This document shows, piece by piece, positions 26,236 to 47,023 of a DNA stretch of 64,000 nt. The notes below the pieces were generated by a model. It worked only from the letters and a program-made list of their open reading frames with translations, was not told the origin of the DNA and searched no databases. This stretch comes from Thermosipho affectus. GTDB lineage: Bacteria; Thermotogota; Thermotogae; Thermotogales; Fervidobacteriaceae. The DNA is taken from contig NZ_LBFC01000023.1 of the NCBI RefSeq assembly GCF_001990485.1, positions 1-64,000 on the forward strand. The letters are read 5' to 3'. The position numbers were made by a program, and so were the translations under genes. Each line of letters starts with the position of its first letter. The first letter of the stretch is position 1.

Positions 26236-26931
26236 TCAAATGTAATTTAACAATATTTTTTCTATTTTGTTGTAATCATTAGTATTTATTTCGCCAATCT
26301 TTCTTCCTTTTTTTAAGACAATTATTTTGTGCATTTTTTTTAATTCTTCAATTTCGTGCGTTGCAAAAAAAATTATTTTATCTTTTCCTATAAGTTCTTC
26401 TACAATATTGTATATACTTTGACGAGTTTTAAGATCAACTCCGGCTGTAGGTTCATCAAAAATATATATTTCAGAATCTTTCATTATTGCCCTTGCTATA
26501 TCCAGTCTTCTTTTTAAACCTTTGGATAACTCCATATATTTTACCTTTTCAAAATCTTTTAAATCTGTTTCTTCAATAACTTTATCTATGACTATTTGCA
26601 ATTTTTCCCCATACAAACCATTAAGTCTTCCAAAAAACTCTAAATTTTGTCTAACGTTTAGTCTATAATAAAAACTCCTTTCAACCCCTGTTGATATTGA
26701 CACATTTTTTCTGGCATATTTTTCATGTTTAAGTAAATCAACACCATCTAACAAAACACTCCCGTTATCTGGGATTAAAAATGTTGCCACTATTTTTAGC
26801 AAAGTAGTTTTTCCAGCTCCATTTTCTCCAAAAAGTGCTATTTTTTCTCCTTTTCTAACAGTTACGTTTATATCTTGTAGTGCTATTGTTCCATTTTTAT
26901 ATTTTTTACTTACATTAATTACCTCAAGCAT
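26236..26931 (-). CDS. ABC transporter ATP-binding protein of the first peptide operon
   Basis: A 231-aa nucleotide-binding subunit of an ABC-2 type transporter: Walker A GENGAGKTTLLK at about residue 36, signature MELSKGLKRRLDIARAI, Walker B EIYIFDEPTAGVDLKTRQ and the switch His in FFATHEIEEL. It pairs with the permease nine bases upstream. As the last gene of an operon with two radical SAM enzymes and a Cys-rich peptide, it is likely to export the modified peptide or give self-protection. That role is inferred from context. Confidence 0.82.
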   Translation of the reverse strand: MLEVINVSKKYKNGTIALQDINVTVRKGEKIALFGENGAGKTTLLKIVATFLIPDNGSVLLDGVDLLKHEKYARKNVSISTGVERSFYYRLNVRQNLEFFGRLNGLYGEKLQIVIDKVIEETDLKDFEKVKYMELSKGLKRRLDIARAIMKDSEIYIFDEPTAGVDLKTRQSIYNIVEELIGKDKIIFFATHEIEELKKMHKIIVLKKGRKIGEINTNDYNKIEKILLNYI

Positions 26932-26940
26932 AAACCCTCC

Positions 26941-27765
26941 TCAATACCACGCAAGAGTCCCTTCCTTTCTTGCTTTATTAAATGATACTTTAAATAACCA
27001 AACACCAAATGGTATTAACACCAAACCCATTATTACCATAACAAGTAATCCCGTTCTTATTTGAACTACATTATAGCCCTTTAGTAAAGTTTTTCTTAAA
27101 AGATCCATACCATACGTTGATGGAAGAAGATACGAAATTCCTCTTATAAATTTCGGCATAATTTCTACTGGATAGTATATTCCTGAAAAAAGCCCTGTGA
27201 GTGTAAAATATATCCAACCCACTGGATCACCTCTTTTGGTTATAAGTATTATTGCAGCTGAAATTAGTCCAATTCCTATAAGCGGAAGCATTACAACAAG
27301 CAAAACCAAAAAAGATCCAAAAATATTTGGATTTATTTTTACTGAAAATAACCATACAAGTGCAGAAAATATAAATAAAATATTAAAAGTTGTAAACAAA
27401 AAGCCACTTAAAAAGTTGAATGTGAAAAGTTGCCAAAATGGCGTATCTGAAAGCAAGAAATATTCAAGTGTTCCCATTCTTTGTTCTCTTTGTATTGACG
27501 CTTTGAAAGTTGATAATGCAAGATTTGTATAAGACATGAATACTGATCCAGTTATAAAATATGCAAGAATGTCTCCACCATATTTTTCGATCAATGGAAA
27601 ATAATTACCACCAGCTATAAATTTCCCTATGAGCCCAAATTGTATTATTCCAACAAATCCACTTAAAAATCCCAAAATAAATTGTGTCCGGTACGAAAAC
27701 CAGATAATTACATCCCGTTTTATAAATCCAAATAATTTTACTGCAAATTTTATAAAATTTTCCAT
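26941..27765 (-). CDS. ABC-2 type transporter permease
   Basis: A 274-aa membrane protein with about six hydrophobic segments and the ABC-2 family motif SGIYYPVEIMPKFIRGISYLLP-like region near residues 190-211 followed by TYGMDLLRKTLL. It starts nine bases after the Cys-rich peptide gene and is followed by its ATPase. Probably exports the peptide made in this operon, or acts in immunity. Confidence 0.8.
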   Translation of the reverse strand: MENFIKFAVKLFGFIKRDVIIWFSYRTQFILGFLSGFVGIIQFGLIGKFIAGGNYFPLIEKYGGDILAYFITGSVFMSYTNLALSTFKASIQREQRMGTLEYFLLSDTPFWQLFTFNFLSGFLFTTFNILFIFSALVWLFSVKINPNIFGSFLVLLVVMLPLIGIGLISAAIILITKRGDPVGWIYFTLTGLFSGIYYPVEIMPKFIRGISYLLPSTYGMDLLRKTLLKGYNVVQIRTGLLVMVIMGLVLIPFGVWLFKVSFNKARKEGTLAWY

Positions 27766-27774
27766 TCTTTCACC

Positions 27775-27975
27775 TTATTTATTTTCCTCATAAAGCCAAG
27801 GAAATAACCAATCCCACCAATGCCTTTTTTTACAGCCTTCGTTACAAATGGCAACACAAGCTTCTTTGTTTGCACAACCGTCGCAATTTTTAACATCTCC
27901 ACAAAGTCCTCTTTCTCCATCACAAAAGGAAAGATATACTTTATCGTTTACAACCGGCTTGTTTAAAAATTCCAT
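27775..27975 (-). CDS. Candidate Cys-rich RiPP precursor peptide A1
   Basis: A 66-aa peptide with no similarity that I can name. A short N-terminal stretch (MEFLNKPVVNDK) is followed by seven cysteines at 18, 25, 31, 34, 40, 44 and 48, then a basic and aromatic tail KKRHWWDWLFPWLY with four Trp. It has a good ribosome site (GGGGGAAGA) and starts 21 bases after a radical SAM/SPASM gene. A near-identical paralogue is at 31,029-31,226 and a broken one at 38.8 kb. The gene context and composition suggest a radical-SAM-modified peptide substrate. Confidence 0.8.
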   Translation of the reverse strand: MEFLNKPVVNDKVYLSFCDGERGLCGDVKNCDGCANKEACVAICNEGCKKRHWWDWLFPWLYEENK

Positions 27976-27996
27976 GTTCTTCCCCCTTTTTAAATT

Positions 27997-30695: not shown

Positions 30696-30715
30696 TATAC
30701 TTCCCCCTTGAGTAT

Positions 30716-30823
30716 TTAAATTGATGCTACGCAATTATCACAATTTGGATTTGGTTCAAAACATACCAAACATTCACATAAACAATTATAGCAACCCTCA
30801 TTTCGACAATCACAATTTGGATT
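30716..30823 (-). pseudogene. Orphan Cys-rich reading frame without start codon
   Basis: In the leader of the maturase operon, 35 sense codons encode nine cysteines (NPNCDCRNEGCYNCLCECLV, then CFEPNPNCDNCVASI and a stop). The frame begins right after a TAG and has no ATG or GTG, only an internal TTG, so it has probably lost its N-terminal leader. The loss point coincides with the edge of the promoter repeat at 30,832. It looks like the core of another Cys-rich precursor decapitated by recombination. Such Cys density is very unlikely by chance. Confidence 0.6.
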
Positions 30824-30831
30824 CTATAATG

Positions 30832-30980
30832 TATTATATAAATCACATGAAAATATAACAACCTCGAAAAATTTCAATTATAAGTTTTTTTTTTTTTTTT
30901 TTTTAACCATAATTATTTACAAAATGCTTTTTATTTTAAAATATTTCTAATTTATTTAAAATATATTAACGAATAATGTA
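30832..30980 (-). repeat. Promoter-bearing repeat R1, copy 1
   Basis: 149 bases nearly identical to 38,623-38,769. It contains a minus-strand promoter, TTGTTA (30856-30861) and TATAAT (30833-30838) with a 17-base spacer, and a T20 run at 30885-30904 (A20 upstream of the promoter when read on the transcribed strand). The two copies differ in the length of this run (20 versus 18) and at one base elsewhere. It drives the A1 maturase operon. Confidence 0.85.
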
Positions 30981-31028
30981 TATTTACGTATTAAAGTTTT
31001 ATGATTTAAAATTTATTGTTCGATTATC

Positions 31029-31226
31029 TTACTCATAAAGCCAAGGAAATAACCAATTCCACCAATGCCTTTTTTTACAGCCTTCATTACAAGAAACATT
31101 TGGTGAACATTCCTCTTTGTTTGCACAACCGTCGCAATTTTTAACATCTCCACAAAGTCCTCTTTCTCCATCACAAAAGGAAAGATATGCTTTATCGTTT
31201 ACAACCGGCTTGTTTAAAAATTCCAT
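31029..31226 (-). CDS. Candidate Cys-rich RiPP precursor peptide A2
   Basis: A 65-aa paralogue of peptide A1 that starts at ATG 31226 behind GGGAGGG. The first 38 residues differ from A1 at one position and the KKRHWWNWLFPWLY tail at one. Seven cysteines are kept (18, 25, 31, 34, 40, 45, 49), but the segment between the fifth and sixth is changed and longer (SPNVS instead of VAI). It has its own promoter and is transcribed toward the A1 operon. The pattern of constant flanks with one variable loop is typical of a modified peptide family. Confidence 0.8.
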   Translation of the reverse strand: MEFLNKPVVNDKAYLSFCDGERGLCGDVKNCDGCANKEECSPNVSCNEGCKKRHWWNWLFPWLYE

Positions 31227-31283
31227 ATAATTCCCTCCCTTTTTAATAAAGTTTTTGATTAATTTTTTGAATATTTCAGTAAA

Positions 31284-31519: not shown

Positions 31520-32039
31520 GTAAAAGTTAAATTTTATAATAAACAAATGAAAAAATATTTTTGTTAGAAATAGGAAAATTAACAAATAACAACACATTTT
31601 TATGGTCTTGTGCAATGTTAATAATAAAACCTTCTTATTTTAGATATTATATTATAAAGCATAAATCAAATTATTCGTAATAATTATGCAAAATAATAAG
31701 AAACATTTTAAAATTTCAAGTATTTTTGCTATAATTACATTTAAAAAAAAAAAAAAAAACGCACTATATGAAAATTTTTAGAGTTTGATAGGCGCTTATA
31801 TATCTTATAAAATAGAATTGTAATTTGTTTAAAAAAATATTTTTCGTTAGTGAAAAAAATATCAAAAGGAACGATATATTATGAATGAAATTTTCAAGGA
31901 TGCGTCTTTTGTTTTTTTGGATAAAAATCTTAAAATCACACATGAAAGTACAAATTTTACAAAATTTAAGTCGTATTACGTCGTTGATTTACCCGAGTAT
32001 AATGTGTACTTACCTGTGCAACTTGAAAAGCACAAAATT
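31520..32039 (+). repeat. Direct repeat R2, copy 1 (promoter plus gene start)
   Basis: About 520 bases that recur at 38,907-39,423 with only a few substitutions and a shorter A run (17 here, 14 there). It holds the plus-strand promoter and the first 52 codons of the unknown gene that is complete in the other copy. Downstream of 32,039 the two copies are unrelated, so the gene here was cut by recombination. Confidence 0.88.
31707..31759 (+). promoter_or_regulatory. Extended -10 promoter with A17 at the start of transcription
   Basis: TTTAAA (31707-31712), a 17-base spacer, then TGCTATAAT, an extended -10. The expected start lies at about 31,742, at the edge of a run of 17 A (31743-31759). Reiterative initiation or slippage is therefore possible. 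The second copy has TATAAT at 39117-39122 and A14 at 39130-39143. Confidence 0.6.
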
Positions 32040-32108
32040 AGAAATCTTAATGGAAAGTTTATATGTGATCCGTTTACTATAGTAAAACAAAGATTTTATA
32101 ACAACTAA
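31881..32108 (+). pseudogene. Truncated copy of the 204-aa unknown gene
   Basis: 75 codons whose first 52 equal the N-terminus of the product encoded at 39,265-39,879 (MNEIFKDASFVFLDKNL and on); after that the sequence changes and stops. It has a ribosome site (AAAGGAACG) and could still be translated as a leader peptide in front of the 35-aa precursor, but I regard it as a duplication remnant. No function can be named. Confidence 0.65.
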
Positions 32109-32175: not shown

Positions 32176-32283
32176 ATGAAAAAAGTTGTTATTTCTTCAA
32201 AAAATTTTGATAAAGTTTTGAATGCAGGATGTACGGGTTATTTTCTTTGTGGTAGTTGTAAAGAAGGCAAACTAACACCATAA
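32176..32283 (+). CDS. Candidate 35-aa RiPP precursor peptide B
   Basis: A 35-residue peptide, MKKVVISSKNFDKVLNAG then CTGYFLCGSCKEGKLTP, with cysteines at 19, 25 and 28. It is too short for usual gene callers, but AAAGGAGGGG lies five bases before the ATG. A 12-bp hairpin follows its stop, and a radical SAM/SPASM gene and an ABC exporter come next. This is the classic order of a RiPP locus: basic leader, Cys/Gly core, attenuating hairpin, maturase, exporter. Modification chemistry is unknown. Confidence 0.78.
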   Translation: MKKVVISSKNFDKVLNAGCTGYFLCGSCKEGKLTP

Positions 32284-32293
32284 CTTTAAAATT

Positions 32294-32324
32294 GTCCTCC
32301 ACCTTATTAAACAAGGTGGAGGAC
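32294..32324 (+). terminator. Attenuator hairpin between precursor B and its maturase
   Basis: A perfect 12-bp stem, GTCCTCCACCTT/AAGGTGGAGGAC around ATTAAAC, eleven bases after the precursor stop. The T-run behind it is weak (GTTTAT), so it is likely to be a partial terminator or a 3' stabiliser that keeps precursor mRNA in excess over maturase mRNA. Confidence 0.75.
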
Positions 32325-32402
32325 GTTTATAAATAGTAATTCTTAAAATTTGTGAGGGACTACTTTTATTCAGAATTTTAGCCAATATATAGGGGTGAAA
32401 TA

Positions 32403-33596
32403 ATGAAAGAGCTTGAATTCATTTTTAAACATTTGGAAAACATAAAAAGTAATTTTAAGCTTTTTTATCGTAAAAATGATAAAGGTTTATTATTACATAA
32501 ACCTACTCTAACATTATATGTTCTAGATAAACAAAATTTTCAATTTTTCAAAGAACTCTTAAACAAAAATGAAGCACAACTAAGAGAAAAATTTAAAAAA
32601 AAGGATTTTGAGCTGAAAGATTTAAAAAATACAATTGAAGAAATTAAAAAGCTTGTTCAATATAACAGTCAAAAAGATAAAAAAACAAAAAAATTAGAAA
32701 GATTAGCACTTTTTATTGCGCAAGAATGTCCGCTAGAATGTGTTTATTGTTATGGGAAAGGAGGAACATATGGAAAATCAGAAATAATGAGTTTGGATAT
32801 TTTAGAAAAATCGATTAACGTATTTTATTCACTCTATGACAAAATTGAAACTATTCAATTTTTTGGTGGAGAACCATTAGTAAACATAGAAGGAATATGT
32901 AAGACAATCGAAATTTTAAATAAAAAAATAATGAGACAACAAATAATTTATATGCCGAAAATTAATATAATAACTGGGCTGGGAGTTTCAAAAAAAGTAG
33001 TTGAGAAATTGATATTATTACTTAAGAAAAATAATCATTTTAATTATGAAATAATTGTGAGCTTTGATGGTCCAAAAAAGATACAGAATCTATTACGACC
33101 TTTTAAAAAAGGATTACCATCATATGATAGGATAGTTGAAAATCTTAATATTTTAAAAGAAATAAATCAACCAAAAGCAATAGAAGTTACTTATACAAAG
33201 CAACATTTAATATTTGGAATTAGTCACGAAGATTTAAAAGAATTTTTTAAGAATGAATTTGATATTGAAGATATTTTAATTAGACCTGTAATGAGCTGCG
33301 ATGAGAATTTAATTATAGAAAATGATAATACTTTAAAGGAAATAGAAAAAATATTAGAAAGACCTTATGATTTGGAATATAAACTGAAAGAATATATAAG
33401 TATTTTGATCAATTCCAAACCTACAGAATATTATTGTAATGCTGGAATATCCAGTGTTGCTATATCAGCTTCTGGCGATATATATCCTTGTCAATTAGTT
33501 GTTGGAGATTCCAAATTTGCTTTTGGTAGTATTCAAGCTCCAATAAAAAAAATAAAAGAAAATCTAAAAAAATGGAAAGTAAATATAAAATTTTAA
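32403..33596 (+). CDS. Radical SAM/SPASM peptide maturase, 0-frame part (frameshifted)
   Basis: A 397-aa reading frame with the cluster motif CPLECVYC at residues 109-116, TIQFFGGEPLVNIEGI and VSFDGPKKIQNLLRPF. The SPASM domain begins (YCNAG, GDIYPCQLVVGD) but the frame ends before the last Cys group. That group (CKECFLTFFCEGC) lies in the -1 frame immediately downstream. Joined by a -1 shift at AAAAAAA (33566-33572), the product would be 454 aa, matching its sibling maturases. It lies between precursor B and an exporter gene. Confidence 0.82.
   Translation: MKELEFIFKHLENIKSNFKLFYRKNDKGLLLHKPTLTLYVLDKQNFQFFKELLNKNEAQLREKFKKKDFELKDLKNTIEEIKKLVQYNSQKDKKTKKLERLALFIAQECPLECVYCYGKGGTYGKSEIMSLDILEKSINVFYSLYDKIETIQFFGGEPLVNIEGICKTIEILNKKIMRQQIIYMPKINIITGLGVSKKVVEKLILLLKKNNHFNYEIIVSFDGPKKIQNLLRPFKKGLPSYDRIVENLNILKEINQPKAIEVTYTKQHLIFGISHEDLKEFFKNEFDIEDILIRPVMSCDENLIIENDNTLKEIEKILERPYDLEYKLKEYISILINSKPTEYYCNAGISSVAISASGDIYPCQLVVGDSKFAFGSIQAPIKKIKENLKKWKVNIKF
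33566..33572 (+). promoter_or_regulatory. A7 slippery site for -1 frameshift
   Basis: In the maturase frame the bases read CTA AAA AAA TGG, so the heptamer is A AAA AAA, a canonical -1 slippery sequence. A -1 slip leads into ATG GAA AGT and restores the SPASM Cys motifs. Transcriptional slippage or a sequencing/homopolymer error would look the same. Confidence 0.55.
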
Positions 33597-33766
33597 ACTC
33601 AAAACTTCTTGACAAAAATTGCAAAGAGTGTTTTTTAACTTTTTTTTGTGAAGGTTGCGTTTTTAAGCAATATTATTTTGAAAAATCATCCGATGCATCT
33701 ATTCCACATAATAACTGTGAAATTGTAAAAACGTTGACTGAACGTTTATTTTTAAGTATAAATTAA
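33572..33766 (+). CDS. SPASM C-terminal segment of the maturase, -1 frame
   Basis: A 64-codon frame carrying NCKECFLTFFCEGCVFKQYY and a later Cys, exactly the auxiliary cluster tail that the upstream frame lacks. No ribosome binding site precedes its ATG, which overlaps the A7 run, so independent translation is unlikely. It is best read as the 3' part of the preceding gene. Confidence 0.72.
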   Translation: MESKYKILNSKLLDKNCKECFLTFFCEGCVFKQYYFEKSSDASIPHNNCEIVKTLTERLFLSIN

Positions 33767-33829
33767 CAACAAAATGTATTACTCAATATCAACAGAATGA
33801 TAGAAAATTAAAAAATAAGGAGGAATACA

Positions 33830-35551
33830 ATGAAACTTTTTTCGATTTTATCAAATAAAGAAGTGAAAGAACTTTTAGATTACACAAAGAAGTATGTAAG
33901 TTATCAAAAAACTATTTTTATATTAGCTCCGATTTTACTTATTGTTGGTTCAATTAGTCCGTTTCTTGTCAGATTTTTGTTTGATAATATAATCCAAAAT
34001 GCGTATTTTTCAAAACTTCCATTATTTGTATTATTATTCATTTTTGTAAAAGGAGCGGAGAGATTTCTTTCAGTTATTGTGAATTATAATTTTAGAAAAT
34101 GTGGAAATCTAATAGTTAGAGATGAACAAACAAGTTTTGTTAAAAAAATTCTTCGCTTACCAGTTCGAACTATCTCTGGAAATAATACAGGTGATATACT
34201 TTCAAGAGCAACTTCAGATATTCCTGTTTTTTCTCAGGTAGTAAGTACAGCTATGCCAGGTATTGTTTTAAATGTCATATCACTGGTTGTTTTTAGTGGA
34301 ATACTTATTTATTTGAGCTGGCAACTTGCAATAGTTGTATTTGCAACTATACCTTTTTATAACCTATCTATCAATAGTTTTAACAGGCTTTTAAAAAATT
34401 TTTCTAAGTTGGAACGCGAAAAGAATAGTGAGGTTATAGAAGGAATACGTGAAAGAATAGAAGGAGCATTAACCATAAAACGCTTTGGTAAATTTGATTA
34501 TTTTGTAAGCAGCTTAAAAGAGAAAATAGACGATTGGGTAAAAATAAGTAATAAATATAATTTGTTTATGCAATCAATAGAAGATTTTTTAGTGTTTATA
34601 AAAGATATATGTCCAATAATAGTATTAAGTTTTGGTGGATATCTAGTTATGAAAGGAAATATAACTCTTGGTACTTTGGTAGGTTTTTATAGTTTCATGA
34701 ACTGGATTTATGAACCAATAAGAGTTTTAAGTCACTTCTTTGTTTCACTTCAAAGTTCAACACCAGTTTTTAAAAGAATAAAAGAAGTATACGAAATGAA
34801 AGAAGAAACAAGCGGAAAAGAAACAATTAAAAATGTAGATGAGATCGAATTTAAAGGAGTTGACTTCTCATATAACAGCAATTATGTGTTAAAAAAATTG
34901 AATTTTAAAGTAACATCGGGTGAACGAGTTGCCATTGCTGGTTTAAGTGGTAGTGGAAAAAGTACGATGTTAAGTCTTATGACAAGATTTTATGAACCAA
35001 CTAATGGGAGTATATTAATAAATAAAAAAGATATAAAAAGGTATACACTTGAATCTCTCAGAAAGAATATTATAGTAGTAAAACAAAACGATTTTCTTTT
35101 TAACATGAGTGTAAAAGAGAATATAATACTTGATGGTAATTTTAGTGAAGAAGAGTTCATAAAAGCAGTGAAAATAGCACGCGTGGATAAGTTTGTAAAT
35201 GAACTTGAAAATGGATATAAAACATTGATTGGAGAACGTGGGAAAAAGTTATCAGATGGTCAAAGACAAAGAATAGCGATAGCAAGGGCAATAATTAGAA
35301 AACCACAAGTTCTTGTACTTGATGAAGCAACATCTGGAATAGATTCTAAAACTGAAGAAGAAATATTTGAAAATCTTTTCAAACTTGATATGACAATAGT
35401 AATTGTTTCCCATAGATTATCCACAATTAAAAAAGCAGGGAAAATATTTATCATAGAAAATGGACAATTTATATGTGATGGAACTCATGAGGAACTACTT
35501 AATAAATGCTCAAAGTATAAACAAATCATTCAAGCTCAACTTATTGGTTAA
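33830..35551 (+). CDS. ABC exporter, fused membrane and ATPase domains
   Basis: A 573-aa half-transporter: six transmembrane helices in the first 310 residues, then a nucleotide-binding domain with Walker A GLSGSGKST, signature KKLSDGQRQRIAIARAI, Walker B QVLVLDEATSGID and the H-loop VSHRLST. There is no N-terminal C39 peptidase domain, so leader removal would need another protease. AAGGAGG precedes the start. Position directly after precursor B and its maturase suggests export of the finished peptide. Confidence 0.88.
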   Translation: MKLFSILSNKEVKELLDYTKKYVSYQKTIFILAPILLIVGSISPFLVRFLFDNIIQNAYFSKLPLFVLLFIFVKGAERFLSVIVNYNFRKCGNLIVRDEQTSFVKKILRLPVRTISGNNTGDILSRATSDIPVFSQVVSTAMPGIVLNVISLVVFSGILIYLSWQLAIVVFATIPFYNLSINSFNRLLKNFSKLEREKNSEVIEGIRERIEGALTIKRFGKFDYFVSSLKEKIDDWVKISNKYNLFMQSIEDFLVFIKDICPIIVLSFGGYLVMKGNITLGTLVGFYSFMNWIYEPIRVLSHFFVSLQSSTPVFKRIKEVYEMKEETSGKETIKNVDEIEFKGVDFSYNSNYVLKKLNFKVTSGERVAIAGLSGSGKSTMLSLMTRFYEPTNGSILINKKDIKRYTLESLRKNIIVVKQNDFLFNMSVKENIILDGNFSEEEFIKAVKIARVDKFVNELENGYKTLIGERGKKLSDGQRQRIAIARAIIRKPQVLVLDEATSGIDSKTEEEIFENLFKLDMTIVIVSHRLSTIKKAGKIFIIENGQFICDGTHEELLNKCSKYKQIIQAQLIG

Positions 35552-35753: not shown

Positions 35754-35933
35754 CTAAGGAACATTTGGGTTGTCCCAAGTACATTCAATAGGTAAATCAA
35801 AGAAACACCCACCGGGTGCTGGCCCACATGGTCCACTTCCTCCTTCGCATAATTGTGCAATCATTTCACAGCCATTTTCCGTTTCCAAATCTTCTGGTGG
35901 TATTATGGGATTTAGTATTTTTACTTTCATCAT
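35754..35933 (-). CDS. Candidate 59-aa Cys-rich RiPP precursor C1
   Basis: A 59-aa peptide on the minus strand, missed by the length and overlap habits of gene callers. A leader-like MMKVKILNPIIPPEDLETEN is followed by a Cys/Gly/Pro-rich part with cysteines at 22, 29, 36, 43 and 51, four of them spaced by exactly seven residues. AAGGAGGAGGGG lies just upstream and the ATGATGA start overlaps the protease stop, so the two are coupled. A second locus with the same gene order has a 59-aa peptide with the same MKxKxLN start. Confidence 0.8.
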   Translation of the reverse strand: MMKVKILNPIIPPEDLETENGCEMIAQLCEGGSGPCGPAPGGCFFDLPIECTWDNPNVP

Positions 35934-37267
35934 TTTTCCCCTCCTCCTTTTGTGTTTTTATTTATAATTTCAAAAGCATAATCTAACATTACATCATTTT
36001 CTCCAAGCAAATAATCTATTTCTTCCTCTTCGGTTAATTCTTTTTCATAATCCACCTCTATTTTTGGGTTGTCTGTAACTTTGTAATATCCACCTGGTAT
36101 AAGTACTAATATTTTCGTATTTGGTAAAATATATTTTCCCAGTGCAGCACCAAGAGAATTAACAGGTTCCCTTGGTCTTTTGCCTATTATTTTTCCTACG
36201 TTTAGCTTTTTAAAAAAGTATGTAGCTACAACTGCCGCTGAAAACATTCTATTATTTACAAGAAGCCATATCTTTCCGTTGAAATTGTGTCTTGCAGGAA
36301 GTATTTTTGGATTTAATTCGTATTTTTCTAAGGTTCTTTTTATTTTTCCGTTACTTAACGGTATATTCTTGCAGGTGTACCCTACTAAGTATATTTGTAA
36401 AGGATTTTGGGTTAAATATTTGAAAAGCTCCCACACATTGTCTAAAAATCCCCCAGAATTTCCTCTTAAATCTATTATTAAATCTGATAAGTCTTCATTT
36501 TCACTGAATGTTTTGTTCAAAAATTCTTTGTAATATGTTAACCATCTATAACTATACATAAACGTACTTATTTTTAATATTCCAATATCTCTTCTTCTTT
36601 CAAACGATAATTTTCTTTTTTTCCATTCCTCTGGATATAATTCTTTTTTCTTTTTAATTGCCTCTTCAAATTTAATGGCATTTACTTTTATTACTTTTTT
36701 TATATCATTGGTTTTTATCAACACTTTGAAATTATTTTTATCTTCAATTTCTGGAAAGAGTTTAATTAAATCCTCCAAATGTTTGAAAAGTACATCTGAG
36801 GAAATTTTTGGTAAAAACAGTTTCAAATCATTAATTATTTCTTCTACATTCCTATCATCGATTTTCAAGATCTCTACCTTATTTTCTAACTCAGTCACAA
36901 GTGAATTTTTCACAAATAATCTATTACCTACCACCACTGGTTCAAATGGCATTACTAATATATCTGGTGTAATATTGAAAAATACCCCATAATGTCCATC
37001 GCTAAAAATATGTATTATAGGAGCAACAGTTTTAAAAAACTCGCCTTTTGTCATAGGCTTGTTAAGTTGTCCCTTTATTCTGTTAACTTCTGAATAAAAC
37101 TTTTCCTGAGATACAAATTCAAATGGATCAATCCCTGATTTTAGTATGTAGTTTATATAAATTTCAAAATCTTTTTGTAATTCTTCAGGAGAAAATAATT
37201 GTTGATTAAAACTTATCATAGCAAACAGTAATAATAAGATTGAAATCCATTTTTGTATATTTTTCAT
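35930..37267 (-). CDS. Secreted S41-family serine protease, locus C1
   Basis: A 445-aa protein with an N-terminal signal or anchor segment (KWISILLLLFAMISF). The S41 core has SDLIIDLRGNSGGFLD at residues 261-276, the likely nucleophile Ser343 in NNRMFSAAVV and a His91 in SDGHYG. No PDZ domain is evident. S41 enzymes cut exported proteins near C-termini. Placed between a radical SAM maturase (three-base gap) and a Cys-rich peptide, it is a good candidate for processing that peptide outside the cytoplasm. Paralogous to 44,190-45,533. Confidence 0.83.
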   Translation of the reverse strand: MKNIQKWISILLLLFAMISFNQQLFSPEELQKDFEIYINYILKSGIDPFEFVSQEKFYSEVNRIKGQLNKPMTKGEFFKTVAPIIHIFSDGHYGVFFNITPDILVMPFEPVVVGNRLFVKNSLVTELENKVEILKIDDRNVEEIINDLKLFLPKISSDVLFKHLEDLIKLFPEIEDKNNFKVLIKTNDIKKVIKVNAIKFEEAIKKKKELYPEEWKKRKLSFERRRDIGILKISTFMYSYRWLTYYKEFLNKTFSENEDLSDLIIDLRGNSGGFLDNVWELFKYLTQNPLQIYLVGYTCKNIPLSNGKIKRTLEKYELNPKILPARHNFNGKIWLLVNNRMFSAAVVATYFFKKLNVGKIIGKRPREPVNSLGAALGKYILPNTKILVLIPGGYYKVTDNPKIEVDYEKELTEEEEIDYLLGENDVMLDYAFEIINKNTKGGGEK

Positions 37268-37270
37268 AAA

Positions 37271-38581
37271 TTATCTTCTCCTTTGAATTAGAATTTTTTT
37301 CAGCTTTTCGGGAATGTATGAGTATAAGGCAATAGATGTTTCAACAAGTTTTCGAACAAACCTACAATAATCTTTGTTTAATTTATAATTCTTTTTATCA
37401 ATTATTCCAGATTCGTAATAACATTGACCTCCACAAATATATCTTGCAAAGCAACTTTGACATTCTTTTAAAATATCTACCTTTTTAATTTTTTCCATGA
37501 TTGTTTCTTCAATAATTTTAAAAATCTTTATTTTATTGTCTTTTAACACGTTCCCAACTTTGCCAGTAAAAGTTCCATCAAACCTATGACAAACATAAAC
37601 ATCTCCTTTAGGATTCACTACTACAACTTTTCTACCTGCTCCACATGGGTAATACCTTTTTTGCCTAGTATGTAAAATTTTTAAAAACATCCAGATTATA
37701 TTTGGTAACTTTTTTTGAAATTTATCAAAATTTCTTTCTTTTAAAAGTTTTATCATTTTATCTGTATAAATATCTATGCTATTTAACAGTTCATCTATTC
37801 TCGGTTTTAATTTATTATCATTTGTTGAAACTAAGAAAACAGTAAATGGAATTGTTAACGTAGAAAAAAACTCCATTAAGTTAGTAAAATCATCATTTTT
37901 TGATGTTAAAGTGGCCCGAAGCAATATTTTTTTAAATATGTCGTTTTTATATGACGAATGTAAAATTTCAATTGCTTTTATAATATCTTCATAGGTTCCT
38001 TTCTTGTTCTTTTTTAGTCTCAATTTATCGTTCAATTTTTGGTTTCCATCCAGACTTAATGTAATTGAAAAGTTATTTTTTCTAAAAAACGTAGCTATTT
38101 CCGGTGTAATGATAGTGCCATTCGTTGTTATAGCAAATCTAATATTTTTTCCTAAATAACTGTTTGCAAAATTTACAACTTTCTTGATAACACTAAAATT
38201 AATGAGCGGTTCTCCTCCAAAAAAAGAGATTCCAACGTTTGATTGCCCTTTTTCATAAAACATTTCTATAGCTTTCTTAGCTGTTTCCAGATTCATTAAA
38301 CCTTTAGAATGATAAGTTCCTTCTTCTGCATAGCAATAAACGCATTTAAGATTACACATATGTGAAACTGTTAACACTAATAACTGTGGTTTAAAATTAA
38401 TACTATTAAAGCTGCATATCTTATTATCTATAAACGGTTTAACTACACTAACTATATTTGGTGGTAAAAAATCGTTATCTTTTATTTGATGGCTAATTTC
38501 TTCATCAATTTCAAGTAGTAATAAGTTTTCTGGCAGAAAAAGAAGATATTTTCCAAAATGATTTATAAGTTTGAACTCCAT
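37271..38581 (-). CDS. Radical SAM/SPASM peptide maturase, locus C1
   Basis: A 436-aa enzyme with CNLKCVYC at residues 76-83, VGISFFGGEPLINFSVIKK and a SPASM region with YPCGAGRK, DVYVCHRFDG and CQSCFARYICGGQC. The N-terminal MEFKLINHFGKYLLFLPENL is shared with the maturase at 45,562-46,890, so the two form a subfamily that differs from the A and B maturases. It is transcribed from repeat R1 copy 2 and followed by the S41 protease and precursor C1. Confidence 0.88.
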   Translation of the reverse strand: MEFKLINHFGKYLLFLPENLLLLEIDEEISHQIKDNDFLPPNIVSVVKPFIDNKICSFNSINFKPQLLVLTVSHMCNLKCVYCYAEEGTYHSKGLMNLETAKKAIEMFYEKGQSNVGISFFGGEPLINFSVIKKVVNFANSYLGKNIRFAITTNGTIITPEIATFFRKNNFSITLSLDGNQKLNDKLRLKKNKKGTYEDIIKAIEILHSSYKNDIFKKILLRATLTSKNDDFTNLMEFFSTLTIPFTVFLVSTNDNKLKPRIDELLNSIDIYTDKMIKLLKERNFDKFQKKLPNIIWMFLKILHTRQKRYYPCGAGRKVVVVNPKGDVYVCHRFDGTFTGKVGNVLKDNKIKIFKIIEETIMEKIKKVDILKECQSCFARYICGGQCYYESGIIDKKNYKLNKDYCRFVRKLVETSIALYSYIPEKLKKILIQRRR

Positions 38582-38769: not shown

Positions 38770-38814
38770 AAGCATTTTTTATGTACTAAAACTATTTTTA
38801 TAGTTTAAAAAATT

Positions 38815-38905
38815 GTTTTATTTATTTTCCTTATAAAGCCAAGGAAATAACCAATTCCACTAATGCCTTTTTTACAGCCTTCGTTACAAATGCCAACACA
38901 AGAGT
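38815..38905 (-). pseudogene. Broken third copy of Cys-rich peptide A
   Basis: The 3' half of a peptide A gene, closest to A1: it encodes SCVGICNEGCKK, then one A is missing from the A7 run and the Trp tail is out of frame, with TGG also changed to TAG. The 5' half is gone; the sequence jumps directly into repeat R2. This marks a deletion between the two repeats relative to the 31 kb copy. Confidence 0.8.
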
Positions 38906-38906
38906 C

Positions 38907-39423
38907 GTAAAAGTTAAATTTTATAATAAACAAATGAAAAAATATTTTTGTCAGAAATAGGGAAATTAACAAATAACAACACATTTTTATGGTCTTGTGC
39001 AATGTTAATAATAAAACCTTCTTATTTTAGATATTATATTATAAAGCATAAATCAAATTATTCGTAATAATTATGCAAAATAATAAGAAACATTTTAAAA
39101 TTTCAAGTATTTTTGCTATAATTACATTTAAAAAAAAAAAAAACGCACTATATGAAAATTTTTAGAGTTTGATAGGCGCTTATATATCTTATAAAATAGA
39201 ATTGTAATTTGTTTAAAAAAATATTTTTCGTTAGTGAAAAAAATATCAAAAGGAACGATATATTATGAATGAAATTTTCAAGGATGCGTCTTTTGTTTTT
39301 TTGGATAAAAATCTTAAAATCACACATGAAAGTACAAATTTCACAAAATTTAAGTCGTATTACGTCGTTGATTTACCCGAGTATAATGTGTACTTGCCTG
39401 TGCAACTTGAAAAACATAAAATT
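38907..39423 (+). repeat. Direct repeat R2, copy 2
   Basis: Matches 31,520-32,039. It carries an extended -10 promoter (TATAAT 39117-39122), an A14 run at 39130-39143 at the expected transcription start, and the start of the complete 204-aa gene. Confidence 0.88.
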
Positions 39424-39879
39424 GTAAAAGTTAGAGAAAAGTTTGTGTGTGATCCTTTTAATAAAATAAACCAAAAAGTAGAGATTCTAAGTTCTCTAAT
39501 AACAAATAAAAATGGTAAAAACGTATCTAAAATCTTTTATGTTTCACATGTAAATACTGAAGTTGAAATAAAAGTCAAATTTTACGTTAAACTTGTACCT
39601 GAAGAATTTCGTTCTTTTATTATAGTGCTAAGGGATAAAGAAGACGTTGAAAAAATTTATATAAGGATATTCAGCTTGATAGAAAAAAGTGGAGAAATGG
39701 TATTTTACCTAAAATTTGATGGAAGAAAAATAGTAGGGAAAAAATATTTAGAACTTTATAGTTGTGGAGAAAGATTGTGGTCTGAAAATATTGAAATTAT
39801 TAAAAACACATATGGGGGGGTGAATTATGGTAAGACCTTATTCATTAACAGCGAACGATGGTACTGGAAGAATGCATGA
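39265..39879 (+). CDS. Unknown 204-aa protein, first gene of the small-protein array
   Basis: No family recognised. The product is hydrophilic, rich in beta-type sequence (KSYYVVDLPEYNVYLPVQLE) and has no signal peptide. A partial second copy at 40.75-40.96 kb ends at NTYGGC, while here a different G run (seven G instead of six plus TGT) lets the frame read on for about 13 residues and overlap the next gene by 53 bases. The ancestral protein was therefore probably about 191 aa. Being promoter-proximal to Gly/Ala-rich small proteins, it may assist or regulate them. Confidence 0.6.
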   Translation: MNEIFKDASFVFLDKNLKITHESTNFTKFKSYYVVDLPEYNVYLPVQLEKHKIVKVREKFVCDPFNKINQKVEILSSLITNKNGKNVSKIFYVSHVNTEVEIKVKFYVKLVPEEFRSFIIVLRDKEDVEKIYIRIFSLIEKSGEMVFYLKFDGRKIVGKKYLELYSCGERLWSENIEIIKNTYGGVNYGKTLFINSERWYWKNA

Positions 39880-40120
39880 TGGATACTACAACAAAGAAGT
39901 AGCAAGAAAAATCGATGAAATAACCACCAAAGCTTGGCAGGCAGATAGAAAAGTAGTGCAAAGTCCATTATTTGAAATTGGATTAGCTGGTATTATAGCT
40001 TTAGCAGGCGGACCTACTTCTATGCTGGGGAGATTTGTAACGGGAGCTGCTAGTGGAGCTGCTTCAATTGGTATTAAAAATTTTATTCTTAAAGCGGTAG
40101 ATTATGCACATGGGCGATAG
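39827..40120 (+). CDS. Bacteriocin-like Gly/Ala-rich small protein, copy 1
   Basis: A 97-aa protein. The first 50 residues (MVRPYSLTANDGTGRMHDGY and on to VVQSPLF) are polar and almost identical in the copy at 40,965. The second half is a Gly/Ala-rich hydrophobic stretch (IGLAGIIALAGG, FVTGAASGAASIGI) ending in KAVDYAHGR. A constant leader-like half and a divergent membrane-active-looking half, followed by a small membrane protein gene, recall bacteriocin and immunity pairs. GGGGGGGTG precedes the ATG. Function is inferred only. Confidence 0.6.
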   Translation: MVRPYSLTANDGTGRMHDGYYNKEVARKIDEITTKAWQADRKVVQSPLFEIGLAGIIALAGGPTSMLGRFVTGAASGAASIGIKNFILKAVDYAHGR

Positions 40121-40174
40121 TAACTTTACAAAACATAAAACTTTATATAGTATTTATCACAAAGGTGGGTGATT

Positions 40175-40964: not shown

Positions 40965-41267
40965 ATGGTAAGACCTTATTCATTAACAGCGAACGATGGC
41001 ACTGGAAGAATGCATGATGGATACTACAACAAAGAAGTAGCAAGAAAAATCGATGAAATAACCACCAAAGCTTGGCAGGCGGATAGGAAAGTAGTGCAGA
41101 GTCCTCTATTTCAGATTGGGCTATCTGGTATTTTGACTGTGGCAACTGGTGGACTGTCTGCAACTAAAACAATAACTAAGTTTGCAATAGGAGCGGCAAG
41201 TGGCGCTTCAGGTATTGGCATCACGAACTTTCTCCTAAAAGCTGTAGACTATGCTCATGGAAGGTGA
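40965..41267 (+). CDS. Bacteriocin-like Gly/Ala-rich small protein, copy 2
   Basis: A 100-aa paralogue of the product at 39,827. The N-terminal half is the same, while the hydrophobic half is changed (ILTVATGGLSATKTITKF, then AIGAASGASGIGITNF) with the KAVDYAHGR end kept. GGGGGGTG lies upstream. The stop overlaps the following membrane protein frame, so the pair is probably coupled. Confidence 0.6.
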   Translation: MVRPYSLTANDGTGRMHDGYYNKEVARKIDEITTKAWQADRKVVQSPLFQIGLSGILTVATGGLSATKTITKFAIGAASGASGIGITNFLLKAVDYAHGR

Positions 41268-43611: not shown

Positions 43612-43862
43612 GGTAGGAGCAGCAAGTGGTGTTTGAGGTATTTTTGTTACGAATTTTCTCTTAAAGAATGTAAATAATGCTCAAGGAAGGTAATATAGTT
43701 AAGAAAACTTTTTAGATTCGTCATAAATTTTGCAAAATTTACAACTCTCTTGATAACATCAAGATTGATGAGTAGTTCTCCGCCAAAAAAAGAGATTCCA
43801 ACATTTGATTGCCATTTTTCATAAATCACTTTTAGAGCTTTCTTAATTGTTTGCAGATTCAT
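43612..43862. pseudogene. Fused remnants: bacteriocin-like gene tail (+) and radical SAM fragment (-)
   Basis: At 43,612-43,705 the plus strand reads GAASGV, a stop, then TNFLLKNV, a degraded end of the 97/100-aa family and the start of its membrane partner. From about 43,710 to 43,862 the minus strand encodes NVGISFFGGELLINLDVIKR, an internal piece of the C-type maturase matching about 38,150-38,290. Both are duplication debris joined head to tail. Confidence 0.75.
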
Positions 43863-43958
43863 TAAACCTAAACTTCGTTATATGATTTATACAATTTATA
43901 TTTGTTTTGGAACATGAAAGAAGGGGAGTTGTTTTTTATTTTGGTTTTTCATCAAGAA

Positions 43959-44138
43959 TTAATACATAATTGGAGGATTACCATAACTGCACAGATCAAA
44001 AATACAAGGAATTTCACATATCATATCGCATATAACTGTATCTTCACCGCCACAAAGTCCGTCTCCATCTCCGGGTGTAAGACAAGCTTCTATTTGTTCT
44101 TCGCTCTTAGGTCCAGTATTTAACAATTTTATTTTCAA
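43959..44138 (-). CDS. Candidate 59-aa Cys-rich RiPP precursor C2
   Basis: A 59-aa peptide with a TTG start behind AAAGGAGTG. The leader-like MKIKLLNTGPKSEEQIEA is followed by cysteines at 19, 29, 37, 41, 45 and 50 in a Gly/Asp-rich part (CLTPGDGDGLCGG) and ends with GNPPIMY. It has the same length, the same MKxKxLN opening and the same position after an S41 protease and a radical SAM gene as precursor C1. It lies 51 bases after the protease stop. The rare start codon and size explain why it is easily missed. Confidence 0.78.
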   Translation of the reverse strand: MKIKLLNTGPKSEEQIEACLTPGDGDGLCGGEDTVICDMICEIPCIFDLCSYGNPPIMY

Positions 44139-44189
44139 CTTTTCACTCCTTTCCTTAATCCCCTTCTTTCATGTTGATTATTCAAAACA

Positions 44190-45533
44190 TTATTTATTCT
44201 TAATTATTTTTATTACTTTTTCAAGAACAAGATCAGAAACTCCTGTCAACCACTCAAGTCTCTCTTCCGTTGTCATTGTAAGTTCGTAATCTGGTATTAC
44301 TCTGTTAGGTGAGGAGTAAGATGTGATTGCAGCTGGAATGTAAACATAAATTTTCATATTTGGCAAATAATGATTAATACCACCCATTGTAAAATGTGAG
44401 GAATAAATTGGTCTTTCTCCTATTATTCTTCCTATTCCATAACTTTGAACAATACTGGCAAAAGTTATTGCAGCTGAAGCTATACCGTTATCGACAAGTA
44501 CCCATACTTTTCCATTAAATACAGGACTTCTTGGAGTTATAATCCACGAATAAGTTGTTTCAATTACTCTTCCATCGGTGTTTGTATCATAACGAACTCC
44601 TATTCCTGCCAAAGCTTGTATGTTGTACTTGGAGTTTTTAACTTTAACTCTACGTTTCACAGAAAGTTCTTTATTTACGAAATGGCCTAATACTTCAATT
44701 ACGCTTTGTGGTTTACCACCGAAGTTTCTTCTTATATCTACAACCAGATCTGTCATGTCTTTATTTTCTCTAAAAACTGTGTTCAGAAATTCTCTGAAAT
44801 CGACAAATAAATTGCCTTTGATGCTAAAACTCCCTATTCTTAATATCCCTATATTTCCTTTTCTTTCAAATTCGTAGGGTAATTTTGATTTCTTAGATTC
44901 TTGAACTTTTCTTCTATATTCTTTCATTGTTATAGCCTTTATATTTTTTCTTTTTATAGAGCCGTTATATTCAAATTCTATTTCCGCACTTTTTTTATTC
45001 CAAAAACTCGGTATCAAGTTGATATATCGGGAAATTTCATGTTCTTTCCGAGAAGAGTTATCTTTTGTAATGGTGTACTGCTCAAACTCCTTTATTATTT
45101 GTGCTGATGGGATGCCATCAATCGCCAAAACTTTTGATTTTATTGGTATATTCTCGATCAATGAAAAAACAACGTAGATATTATTATCTATAACATAAAG
45201 AGTCATTGGAAAGATTTGAGAATCATTCGAAATGGGAAGTTCAATACTACAATGGTAATCATTCAGGTAATGGAAAATAGGAGAAACCGCTTTAAAAAAT
45301 TCAAAACTATCCATAGGTTTGTTAAGTTTTCTTCTTACATCATCAACGATCTCTGCAAATTCTGGGCTTTTAACCAGTCCATTTGGATCAATGTACGCTT
45401 CTTTTAGAAGGGCAATAATAAATTCAAAATCTCTTTGAAGTTTTTCTGGTTCAATTTTGGCTGCAAATATCGAGGAAATAAAAACAACACTTGTTAAAAA
45501 AAGAACTATTAACACTTTCAAAGATTTTTTCAT
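44190..45533 (-). CDS. Secreted S41-family serine protease, locus C2
   Basis: A 447-aa paralogue of the C1 protease with a clear signal peptide (VLIVLFLTSVVFISSIFAA). TDLVVDIRRNFGGKPQ, the probable nucleophile Ser353 in VDNGIASAAITF and His94 in NDYHCS mark the S41 core. It lies 28 bases after the maturase and before precursor C2. The repeated maturase-protease-peptide order argues that the protease acts on the peptide. Confidence 0.83.
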   Translation of the reverse strand: MKKSLKVLIVLFLTSVVFISSIFAAKIEPEKLQRDFEFIIALLKEAYIDPNGLVKSPEFAEIVDDVRRKLNKPMDSFEFFKAVSPIFHYLNDYHCSIELPISNDSQIFPMTLYVIDNNIYVVFSLIENIPIKSKVLAIDGIPSAQIIKEFEQYTITKDNSSRKEHEISRYINLIPSFWNKKSAEIEFEYNGSIKRKNIKAITMKEYRRKVQESKKSKLPYEFERKGNIGILRIGSFSIKGNLFVDFREFLNTVFRENKDMTDLVVDIRRNFGGKPQSVIEVLGHFVNKELSVKRRVKVKNSKYNIQALAGIGVRYDTNTDGRVIETTYSWIITPRSPVFNGKVWVLVDNGIASAAITFASIVQSYGIGRIIGERPIYSSHFTMGGINHYLPNMKIYVYIPAAITSYSSPNRVIPDYELTMTTEERLEWLTGVSDLVLEKVIKIIKNK

Positions 45534-45561
45534 AAAATCCCTCCTTTTTTAAAACAGTTTA

Positions 45562-46890
45562 TTATGAAACTACTTCTGATTTGTTTGCTTTTGAAAAATT
45601 ATCTTTTAATTTATCAGGTAAATAAGCATATATTACTAATCCCAATTCAAACAATTTTTTCTTAAAATGGCAACTGAGCTTATCAACGGTATTCCATTCA
45701 TTAGCCGTAATCAGTGATTCATGATAACATCTACCACCACAAATATATTTTGCCCAGCAGTTAGAACAATCTTGTAAGTGATCCACAGTATAGAGCTTCT
45801 CTGAAAATAATCTTCTTGTATTTTCAATAATGTCCTTACGAGTATCTTCAAATATATTTCCAACCTTGCCGTTATTGTTTCCATCCATTCTATGGCAAAT
45901 GTAAACATCACCCATTGGATTTACAACCAAAACTTTTCTACCACCGCCACACGGATAAAATCTTTTATTTTTACCATGAACAACAGTTATTGCAAGGTTC
46001 ATCCATCCAAATGTCTTTTTAAAAGCTTGTTTGTAATTTCTATCTCTAACCAGATCTGTAATATATTTTCCAAAATCATTAATTTTCGAAGATAATTCTT
46101 CGAAAGTTGGTCTTAAATTTTCATCATTTGTTGTAACTAATTGAATTGTGAATGGTAAATCTAAAGAAGAAAAGTATCCAACTAATTCAATCAAATCGTT
46201 ATTTATAGAAGTTAACGTAGCACGAATACTAACTCTACCATTTGTGTTATACAATAATAATTTTTTAATACTATTTAAGATAGTATTATGTGTGCCTTTA
46301 CCAGCTTTTGTGTAACGCAATTTATCATTGTAAAATTGATCTCCATCTAAGCTTATCAGAACACTAAAATCATTATTTGTCAGAAAACATGCAACATCAT
46401 CTTTTATCAAAATTCCATTGGTTGTCATTCCAAATTTTACATTTCTTCCAATATATTCTTTTGCAAATTTCGTAACTTGTTTTATAAGTTTAAAGTTCAG
46501 CAGAGGTTCTCCTCCGAAAAATGTAATTCCCACATTTGATTGACCCTTATCAAAAAAAGTTTCAATTGCTCTTTTAGCAGTTTCAAAATCCATGACTCCT
46601 GGATTACCATAAGTTCCGTTGTTTCCATAACAATATTTGCAATTTAAATTACATTCATGAGATACTGTTAGAACTATTGCATTAATATCATACTTTTCTT
46701 CAACCGTTTTCGTCAACTCATTTTTTTGTTTAATTGGTAAGTATTTAAATATTTCCTTTTTTATAGATTCTGGCAAAGTACTTTTGTTTTCAAAAAATGA
46801 AAATAACTCTTCATCAATCTCAAACAACAACAAATGCTCAGGCAAAAAAAGAAGATGTTTTCCAAAGCGACTTATGAGTTTAAATTCCAT
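45562..46890 (-). CDS. Radical SAM/SPASM peptide maturase, locus C2
   Basis: A 442-aa enzyme with CNLNCKYC at residues 80-87, VGITFFGGEPLLNFKLIK, FYPCGGGRK, DVYICHRMDG and the SPASM group CSNCWAKYICGGRC. The N-terminal MEFKLISRFGKHLLFLPEHL aligns with the C1 maturase. The start has GGGGGAGAAGGGG. First gene of the second C-type operon. Confidence 0.88.
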   Translation of the reverse strand: MEFKLISRFGKHLLFLPEHLLLFEIDEELFSFFENKSTLPESIKKEIFKYLPIKQKNELTKTVEEKYDINAIVLTVSHECNLNCKYCYGNNGTYGNPGVMDFETAKRAIETFFDKGQSNVGITFFGGEPLLNFKLIKQVTKFAKEYIGRNVKFGMTTNGILIKDDVACFLTNNDFSVLISLDGDQFYNDKLRYTKAGKGTHNTILNSIKKLLLYNTNGRVSIRATLTSINNDLIELVGYFSSLDLPFTIQLVTTNDENLRPTFEELSSKINDFGKYITDLVRDRNYKQAFKKTFGWMNLAITVVHGKNKRFYPCGGGRKVLVVNPMGDVYICHRMDGNNNGKVGNIFEDTRKDIIENTRRLFSEKLYTVDHLQDCSNCWAKYICGGRCYHESLITANEWNTVDKLSCHFKKKLFELGLVIYAYLPDKLKDNFSKANKSEVVS

Positions 46891-46993
46891 ATTACCCCTT
46901 CTCCCCCGTTAGTTTGTTTATTTAAATGAATGTGAGAAAAAATTCACTTGTTAAATAAAATACTTAAATTTTTTTATATTCCATCCAAATTGC

Positions 46994-47023
46994 ATTATAC
47001 AATTTATAAATTCACTCGTACAA
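46994..47023 (-). promoter_or_regulatory. Promoter of the C2 operon, with upstream T15 run
   Basis: TTGTAC and TATAAT on the minus strand with an 18-base spacer. A T15 run lies 24 bases further upstream (47047-47061), the same layout as repeat R1 although the surrounding sequence has diverged. Confidence 0.65.

Follow-up and report, generated by a model that had tools for sequence, protein, structure and literature searches.

Two old paralogous loci of Thermosipho affectus as probable RiPP modules, each with a cysteine-rich precursor, a radical SAM/SPASM maturase and its own exported S41 peptidase

Introduction

Peptide-based competition in thermophiles is little studied, and short precursor genes, some of them started by a TTG codon, tend to escape annotation. 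In the 64,000 nucleotides of Thermosipho affectus DNA analysed here (contig NZ_LBFC01000023.1, positions 1 to 64,000, hereafter the window), a gene for a radical SAM/SPASM enzyme and a gene for an exported S41 peptidase are followed by a frame encoding 59 amino acids only. The same arrangement occurs twice in this genome of 1.77 Mb, at the loci C1 and C2. Is this short frame a gene and, if so, what would a peptide, a maturase and a peptidase do together? We consider it probable that C1 and C2 represent a pair of paralogous RiPP modules of old origin, i.e., a precursor, its radical SAM maturase, an export step and an S41 peptidase specific for the product.

Results

The C1 and C2 loci

The three C2 genes lie on the minus strand in the order maturase, S41 protease, peptide. 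The maturase (45562..46890, 442 aa) carries a predicted RRE-like N-terminus (residues 4-59), a CxxxCxxC motif at residue 80 and SPASM cysteines between residues 314 and 408. It is followed by the exported S41 peptidase (44190..45533, 447 aa) and by the candidate precursor peptide (43959..44138, 59 aa, TTG start, MKIKLLNTGPKSEEQIEACLTPGDGDGLCGGEDTVICDMICEIPCIFDLCSYGNPPIMY), whose six cysteines occupy positions 19, 29, 37, 41, 45 and 50. This gene order, with its coordinates, strand, TTG codon and peptide length, had been proposed by a first-pass annotation and was entirely borne out when we read the sequence again. A promoter-like block, TTGTAC-18-TATAAT (46992..47023, minus strand), lies upstream of the maturase gene, and a relic of a further C-type maturase (43725..43868, minus strand), matching residues 98-145 at 52%, lies directly downstream of the peptide gene. 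Rfam gave no structured RNA match around the C2 peptide. The TTG is the sole usual start codon of the window frame, and both the TTG and the ribosome-binding stretch are conserved in the two copies of genome G003. A longer start, at an ATG 12 codons upstream in one of them (G003b), was rejected as a general solution: the window frame is shifted there by one base.

C1 (35754-38581, minus strand) shows the same three-gene order, as the annotation had claimed, with a maturase (37271..38581, 436 aa), an exported S41 peptidase (35930..37267, 445 aa) and a candidate precursor peptide (35754..35933) whose gene overlaps the S41 stop codon by ATGA. The two peptides had also been described as exactly equal in length; this holds (59 aa in both) when C1 is read from its first ATG, whereas the second ATG gives 58 aa, so that the equality depends on the choice of start. 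Identity between the two loci amounts to 46% for the maturases and to 30-31% for the proteases, so that the duplication is old and neither locus is a recent copy. In C1-type cores, a cysteine stands about every seventh position (gaps of 7, 7, 7, 8 at 35754-35933 and of 7, 7, 8, 8 at 10283-10465 of L058), and the C2-type cores differ.

The short peptide as a gene

A profile built from six peptides and searched against 103 Thermotogota genomes found these six only, with E values from 1e-14 to 1e-31, the next match having an E value of 0.01. The six copies, two each in the Thermosipho-type genomes G000, G003 and G030, all (6/6) stand directly behind an S41 gene. Pairwise dN/dS between the peptide homologues is 0.23-0.37, a rough estimate over 58 codons. 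One G003 locus (G003a) has its maturase, protease and peptide intact. In the other (G003b), residues 1-165 are missing from the maturase and a frameshift interrupts the signal-peptide region of the protease, whereas the peptide is whole. A leader pattern combined with at least five cysteines selects only these genes among the 1980 small open reading frames of all the loci read, the pattern itself being derived from the genes that it selects.

The frame is short, that of C2 starts with TTG, and none of the peptides has a Pfam match or a meaningful NCBIfam match, all of which a chance open reading frame could also display. On the contrary, such a frame would hardly have six in-register homologues in three genomes, with E values down to 1e-31, a conserved start codon and dN/dS between 0.2 and 0.4. 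Conservation and dN/dS thus led us to reject chance, the least credible of all the explanations considered, and the claim that both the C1 and the C2 peptides are real genes stands.

A conserved opening and a variable core

We used the C2 maturase as a query to find more distant loci. The genome labels given here (Kosmotoga-like, Marinitoga-like and T. melanesiensis-like) are our own tentative readings. In the Kosmotoga- and Marinitoga-like genomes, the peptides open with K-[IL]-[IL]-x-LN-x-P and their cysteine part is different. G063 encodes two peptides (57 and 54 aa) that begin with MDYKIIPLNGP or MDYRIIPLNEP. Each has its own S41 gene behind it; a single maturase comes next, and an ABC-2 exporter lies upstream. 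G083 has two peptides opening with MSFKII[GS]LNEPG, an exported 850-aa protein after each, and, following these, an ABC-2 exporter of the same family. In the one 850-aa protein that is fully translated, we recognised by eye HEIVHAIDF...EGLANWF, a putative gluzincin-type zinc protease motif; Pfam gives only propeller-like repeats for this protein. In L098, a cysteine-rich peptide is paired with an exported propeller-like protein in which no protease motif is visible. The G063 and G083 loci thus point to an opening conserved across genera, a variable cysteine part and, for each peptide, an exported and usually protease-like partner, in a 1:1 ratio (an S41 enzyme or a putative HExxH metalloprotease).

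The annotation had proposed to look for a leader kept across genomes beside varying cores, and this is what three groups of genomes show. The MKxKxLN opening that it named is present locally; across genera it broadens to M-x-[IVLYF]-[KR]-[ILV]-[IL]-(0-2)-N-(0-4)-P. The two Kosmotoga-like peptides of G063 (L095, 12935-13099 and 14666-14839) differ mostly in the core, their first third being 82% identical, and have a dN of 0.20 vs a dS of 0.15, i.e., a dN/dS of 1.33 that rests on few sites. Acidic residues are in excess at Cys+1 (13 vs 7.2 expected, p 0.01) and, less clearly, at Cys+3 (11 vs 7.3, p 0.08), so that the spacing of cysteines and acids is weakly non-random, too weakly to carry weight. 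A PapB-like Cys-X3-acid rule or regular array was looked for in the peptides and is absent.

The maturase and the class of the system

All five C-type enzymes checked (5/5) carry CxxxCxxC and a full SPASM pattern. The two best NCBIfam models for the C maturases are PapB and the nif11 maturases, both scoring well under their cut-offs: PapB (NF047865) gives 216-237 bits for a cut-off of 340, and the SCIFF model (TIGR03974) gives 217 bits for a cut-off of 425. An AlphaFold model of the C2 maturase, of moderate confidence (mean pLDDT 70), places a beta-beta-beta-alpha-alpha-alpha fold at the N-terminus, as in an RRE. The known structure closest to this model is CteB (5why/5wgg, TM about 0.7); our models rest on 4-5 sequences. 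This modelled RRE-like fold could read the opening of the peptide. Thioether formation is the expected chemistry of the maturase on the peptide, since its nearest relatives are the PapB/nif11 models and the CteB structure. A plasmid search with the maturase gave matches at about 30% identity only. C1 and C2 have an encoded precursor with a conserved leader and a variable core beside the maturase, as expected of a RiPP with a radical SAM/SPASM enzyme, and this supports a system of the ranthipeptide/sactipeptide kind; thioethers to a beta or gamma carbon would place it among the ranthipeptides, those to an alpha carbon among the sactipeptides.

The exported S41 peptidase

The annotation had left the protease unexplained, and we count it as the most informative part of the locus. 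Both proteases belong to the S41 family, with PF03572 scores of 69 and 59 bits for a gathering score of 24 (C2, E=4e-19), and that of C2 begins with a signal-peptide-like stretch. Its closest relatives bearing titles come from Thermosipho MAGs, and distant single S41 homologues (25-30%) are widespread in the bacterial family. In an alignment of 12 homologues, D92-x-H94, S353 and E424 of the C2 protease are invariant. In its AlphaFold model, H94 follows helix 76-91 and S353 opens helix 353-364; the nisin resistance protein (NSR) is reported to be built likewise, and the C2 protease may work in a similar way. The proteases diverge faster than the maturases, with identities of 31 vs 46%, 50 vs 62% and 73 vs 84%.

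Losses and orphan proteases

Four loci (two in G026, one in G027 and one in G028) have an S41 gene without a maturase, and none of them (0/4) has an intact peptide. A maturase stub, made of the last 20-33 codons, precedes the S41 gene in G027 and in the C1 locus of G026, where one can still read the opening of the peptide (VKIKILNSNN) but its core is broken. In the C2 locus of G026, 94% homology to the window runs from beside the maturase stop codon to the outer edge of an inverted repeat (see below), and a block matching 46992-47023 (TTGTAC...TATAAT), which we take for the ancestral promoter, lies directly before the orphan protease. The orphan proteases are under purifying selection, with a dN/dS of 0.23 between G026 and G027 and of 0.40 between G026 and the window. 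The annotation had named homologous loci devoid of a cysteine-rich frame as evidence against the peptide. Such loci exist in G026, G027 and G028, yet they do not refute it, because they have also lost the maturase.

G030 is an exception. This genome holds two intact peptide-S41 pairs, with peptides of the C1 type, and its C-type maturase persists only as a stub (67% over 21 codons); the pairs adjoin an A-type maturase pair. The link between maturase and leader is hence not absolute.

An inverted repeat around the C2 peptide gene

The C2 peptide gene is enclosed by two exactly complementary arms of 17 bp, one upstream (44159..44175, minus strand, AACATGAAAGAAGGGGA) and one downstream (43911..43927, TCCCCTTCTTTCATGTT on the minus strand). 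The repeat occurs at the same places in G003a (13 contiguous pairs) and G003b (16 bp) (L020, L021), and two positions vary on both sides and still pair, i.e., the changes are compensatory. When these flanks were shuffled by mononucleotide, no score was ever as high as those of the repeats. Among the longer genes of the loci read, 1/160 scores at least 14, and this gene is transposase-like with terminal repeats, as judged by sequence. A perfect 14-bp pair surrounds the peptide gene of the Marinitoga-like L098 (around 13802-14011), and no enclosing repeat was seen at the C1, D and B peptide genes. The predicted folds of the C2-type RNAs (3/3) close on the stem; only in G003b does the fold as a whole clearly surpass those of shuffled sequences. 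Around the precursor cistron, the inverted repeat may serve as an RNA stem for processing or stability, or it may be an element of the DNA. The arms might also be the terminal inverted repeats of a mobile cassette: the G026 homology stops where the upstream arm has its outer edge, but neither an empty site nor a target duplication was found.

A candidate exporter and neighbouring loci

Within the window, no exporter stands next to C1 or C2. A candidate for their peptides is the ABC-2 exporter at 26236..27765 (minus strand; ATPase 26236-26931, permease 26941-27765); in G003a, G063 and G083, members of its permease family (55-84% identity) are encoded within the C loci themselves. This exporter belongs to the A locus (26236-31229, minus strand), with two radical SAM enzymes (27997-29361 and 29358-30734) and two near-identical, cysteine-rich D peptides (27775-27975 and 31029-31229, MEFLNKPVVNDK...) that have no Pfam or NCBIfam match. 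The A-locus set is also found in L098 and L099, and in L058 D peptides stand behind C1-type peptides.

The D peptides also open with LN-x-P (MEF[LV]N[EK]P); they are served by other maturases and by the same family of ABC-2 exporter. Because of this, the exporter may read the LN-x-P opening, besides or in place of the C maturase. No protease lies alongside the D peptides in the window or in L099. Since these peptides share the exporter family and the LN-x-P opening, the S41 enzyme does not look like a general leader peptidase.

The B locus (32176-35551, plus strand) comprises a 35-aa frame with three cysteines (MKKVVISSKNFDKVLNAGCTGYFLCGSCKEGKLTP), a radical SAM enzyme whose C-terminus is short, and an ABC exporter that lacks a peptidase domain; G063 has homologues of the enzyme (47%) and of the exporter (62%). 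Between C1 and C2 (39265-42272, plus strand), a protein of 97-100 aa that contains a hydrophobic, Gly/Ala-rich stretch occurs as a near-repeat (39827-40120 and 40965-41267), beside membrane proteins of 151-169 aa at 40169, 41264 and 41793 (plus strand) that match no family. They may represent additional peptide-immunity pairs. One protein start (MNEIFKDASFVFLDKNLKITHEST...), for which we found no convincing family, is present twice on the plus strand, in full at 39265-39879 and cut short at 31881-32108. Finally, a relic at 38805-39002 (minus strand) has a frame end that resembles a shifted reading of a D peptide. Together with the maturase relic at 43725-43868, it tells of duplication and decay in the history of the region.

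Discussion

We propose that the 59-aa peptide would be a precursor, with a leader of residues 1 to about 15 and a cysteine- and acid-rich core beyond. The maturase would bind the leader through its RRE-like N-terminus and cross-link the core cysteines by thioethers to neighbouring residues, which might be acidic as they are with PapB. Export of the product would then proceed through an ABC-2 exporter and the product would, outside the cytoplasm, meet its own S41 peptidase, which would act on that product and not on the common leader. The module reading has to accommodate several observations, i.e., the G030 pairs left with just a stub of a C-type maturase, maturase family scores that all stay under their cut-offs, peptides that match no family at all, the propeller-like partner of L098, the G063 dN/dS of 1.33, the weak spacing of cysteines and acids and the lack of an exporter adjoining C1 and C2.

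Could these peptides rather be metal-binding, cluster-binding or disulphide peptides, the radical SAM enzyme acting elsewhere? Many cysteines in a short chain and the persistence of the peptides in G030 would suit such a role. However, in the other genomes peptide and maturase vanish together, the maturase is nearest to thioether-forming peptide maturases, and the number and spacing of the cysteines differ between copies, which is not expected of a fixed metal site; we hold this role to be quite improbable. Improbable too, if somewhat less so, is a peptide that, once matured by the radical SAM enzyme, would regulate or inhibit the S41 protease, the latter being the main player and the peptide having no antibiotic role. 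The tight 1:1 pairing, the survival of the protease alone, the wide occurrence of distant single S41 homologues and the retention of peptide and protease in G030 all agree with it, but it leaves unexplained why the loss of the peptide goes with that of the maturase at four loci, as well as the shared exporter and the variable cysteine cores.

A far stronger contender keeps the same RiPP module and makes the S41 enzyme a maturation protease, removing the leader or trimming the C-terminus after export. This enzyme is the only protease of the module and is encoded between maturase and precursor, the exporter has no peptidase domain, and G083 substitutes an exported protein with a metalloprotease motif, as if any protease would do. 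On the other hand, there is one protease per peptide despite leaders in common, orphan proteases are selected without peptide or maturase, and the related D loci have no protease. With these points on both sides, we rate a maturation protease as quite possible, somewhat below even. The 1:1 pairing and the protease kept under selection after the loss of peptide and maturase make self-protection at least as likely as leader removal. Self-protection, in which the enzyme would cut the active peptide of its own producer in the manner of the nisin resistance protein, seems slightly more likely than final trimming; it is favoured by the one protease per peptide despite the shared leaders of G063, by the faster divergence and by the retention after loss. 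A more detailed picture, in which a thioether-type Thermotogota RiPP has an extracytoplasmic S41 immunity protein for each precursor, retained as an orphan resistance gene once production is lost, and a C2 cistron looped out by an RNA stem, is speculative and, taken as a whole, rather doubtful. Such a stem, if true, would set the expression of the C2 precursor apart from that of the enzyme genes.

With these loci, one can test whether a peptidase is dedicated to self-protection against a radical SAM peptide. The decayed loci, with a maturase stub, a broken peptide and an intact protease, provide natural controls, and sufficient stability for biochemical work is to be expected of the enzymes.

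Comparison with known systems

A Thermosipho locus of this kind is not new: Tmel_0409 of Thermosipho melanesiensis BI429 was listed in 2014, as a table entry, among putative sactipeptide clusters for its radical SAM gene (PMC4289311), and judging by gene position it is probably our G003a locus. The text accompanying this entry describes no precursor, protease pairing or second paralogue. In the literature that we searched, we found no description of the peptide family, the pairing, the losses or the inverted repeat and, subscription papers being outside its scope, nothing relevant on an S41 enzyme in radical SAM RiPP loci.

The PapA/PapB ranthipeptides (freyrasin type) resemble C1 and C2 in having a radical SAM/SPASM maturase beside a cysteine- and acid-rich precursor. 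PapB forms its links between cysteines and Asp/Glu and tolerates Cys-Xn-Asp spacings of n=0-6 (PMC9413430). Here, however, no regular Cys-X3-Asp/Glu array is present, and the exported S41 partner is no part of the PapA/PapB system as described. SCIFF/CteB is approached by the C2 maturase, with its model matching CteB and its RRE-like N-terminus, but the precursor has no NCBIfam match and is not SCIFF.

On the protease side, the best Foldseek matches of the S41 model are 4ghn and CPAF, the latter being also the best NCBIfam match of the C1 protease; yet the identity is 13-16%, the rmsd is large and the NCBIfam score is 36 bits for a cut-off of 250, and CPAF is a chlamydial protease with another role. 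NSR, like the C proteases, is an exported S41 peptidase, with the arrangement of histidine and serine modelled for C2, and its substrate is a thioether-ringed peptide that it cuts outside the cell (PMC4698656). Unlike NSR, the C proteases lack the TASSAEM motif, reading IASAAI in C2 and MFSAAV in C1, and a PDB search detects no sequence relation. They are thus not members of the NSR family and would, at most, work like NSR.
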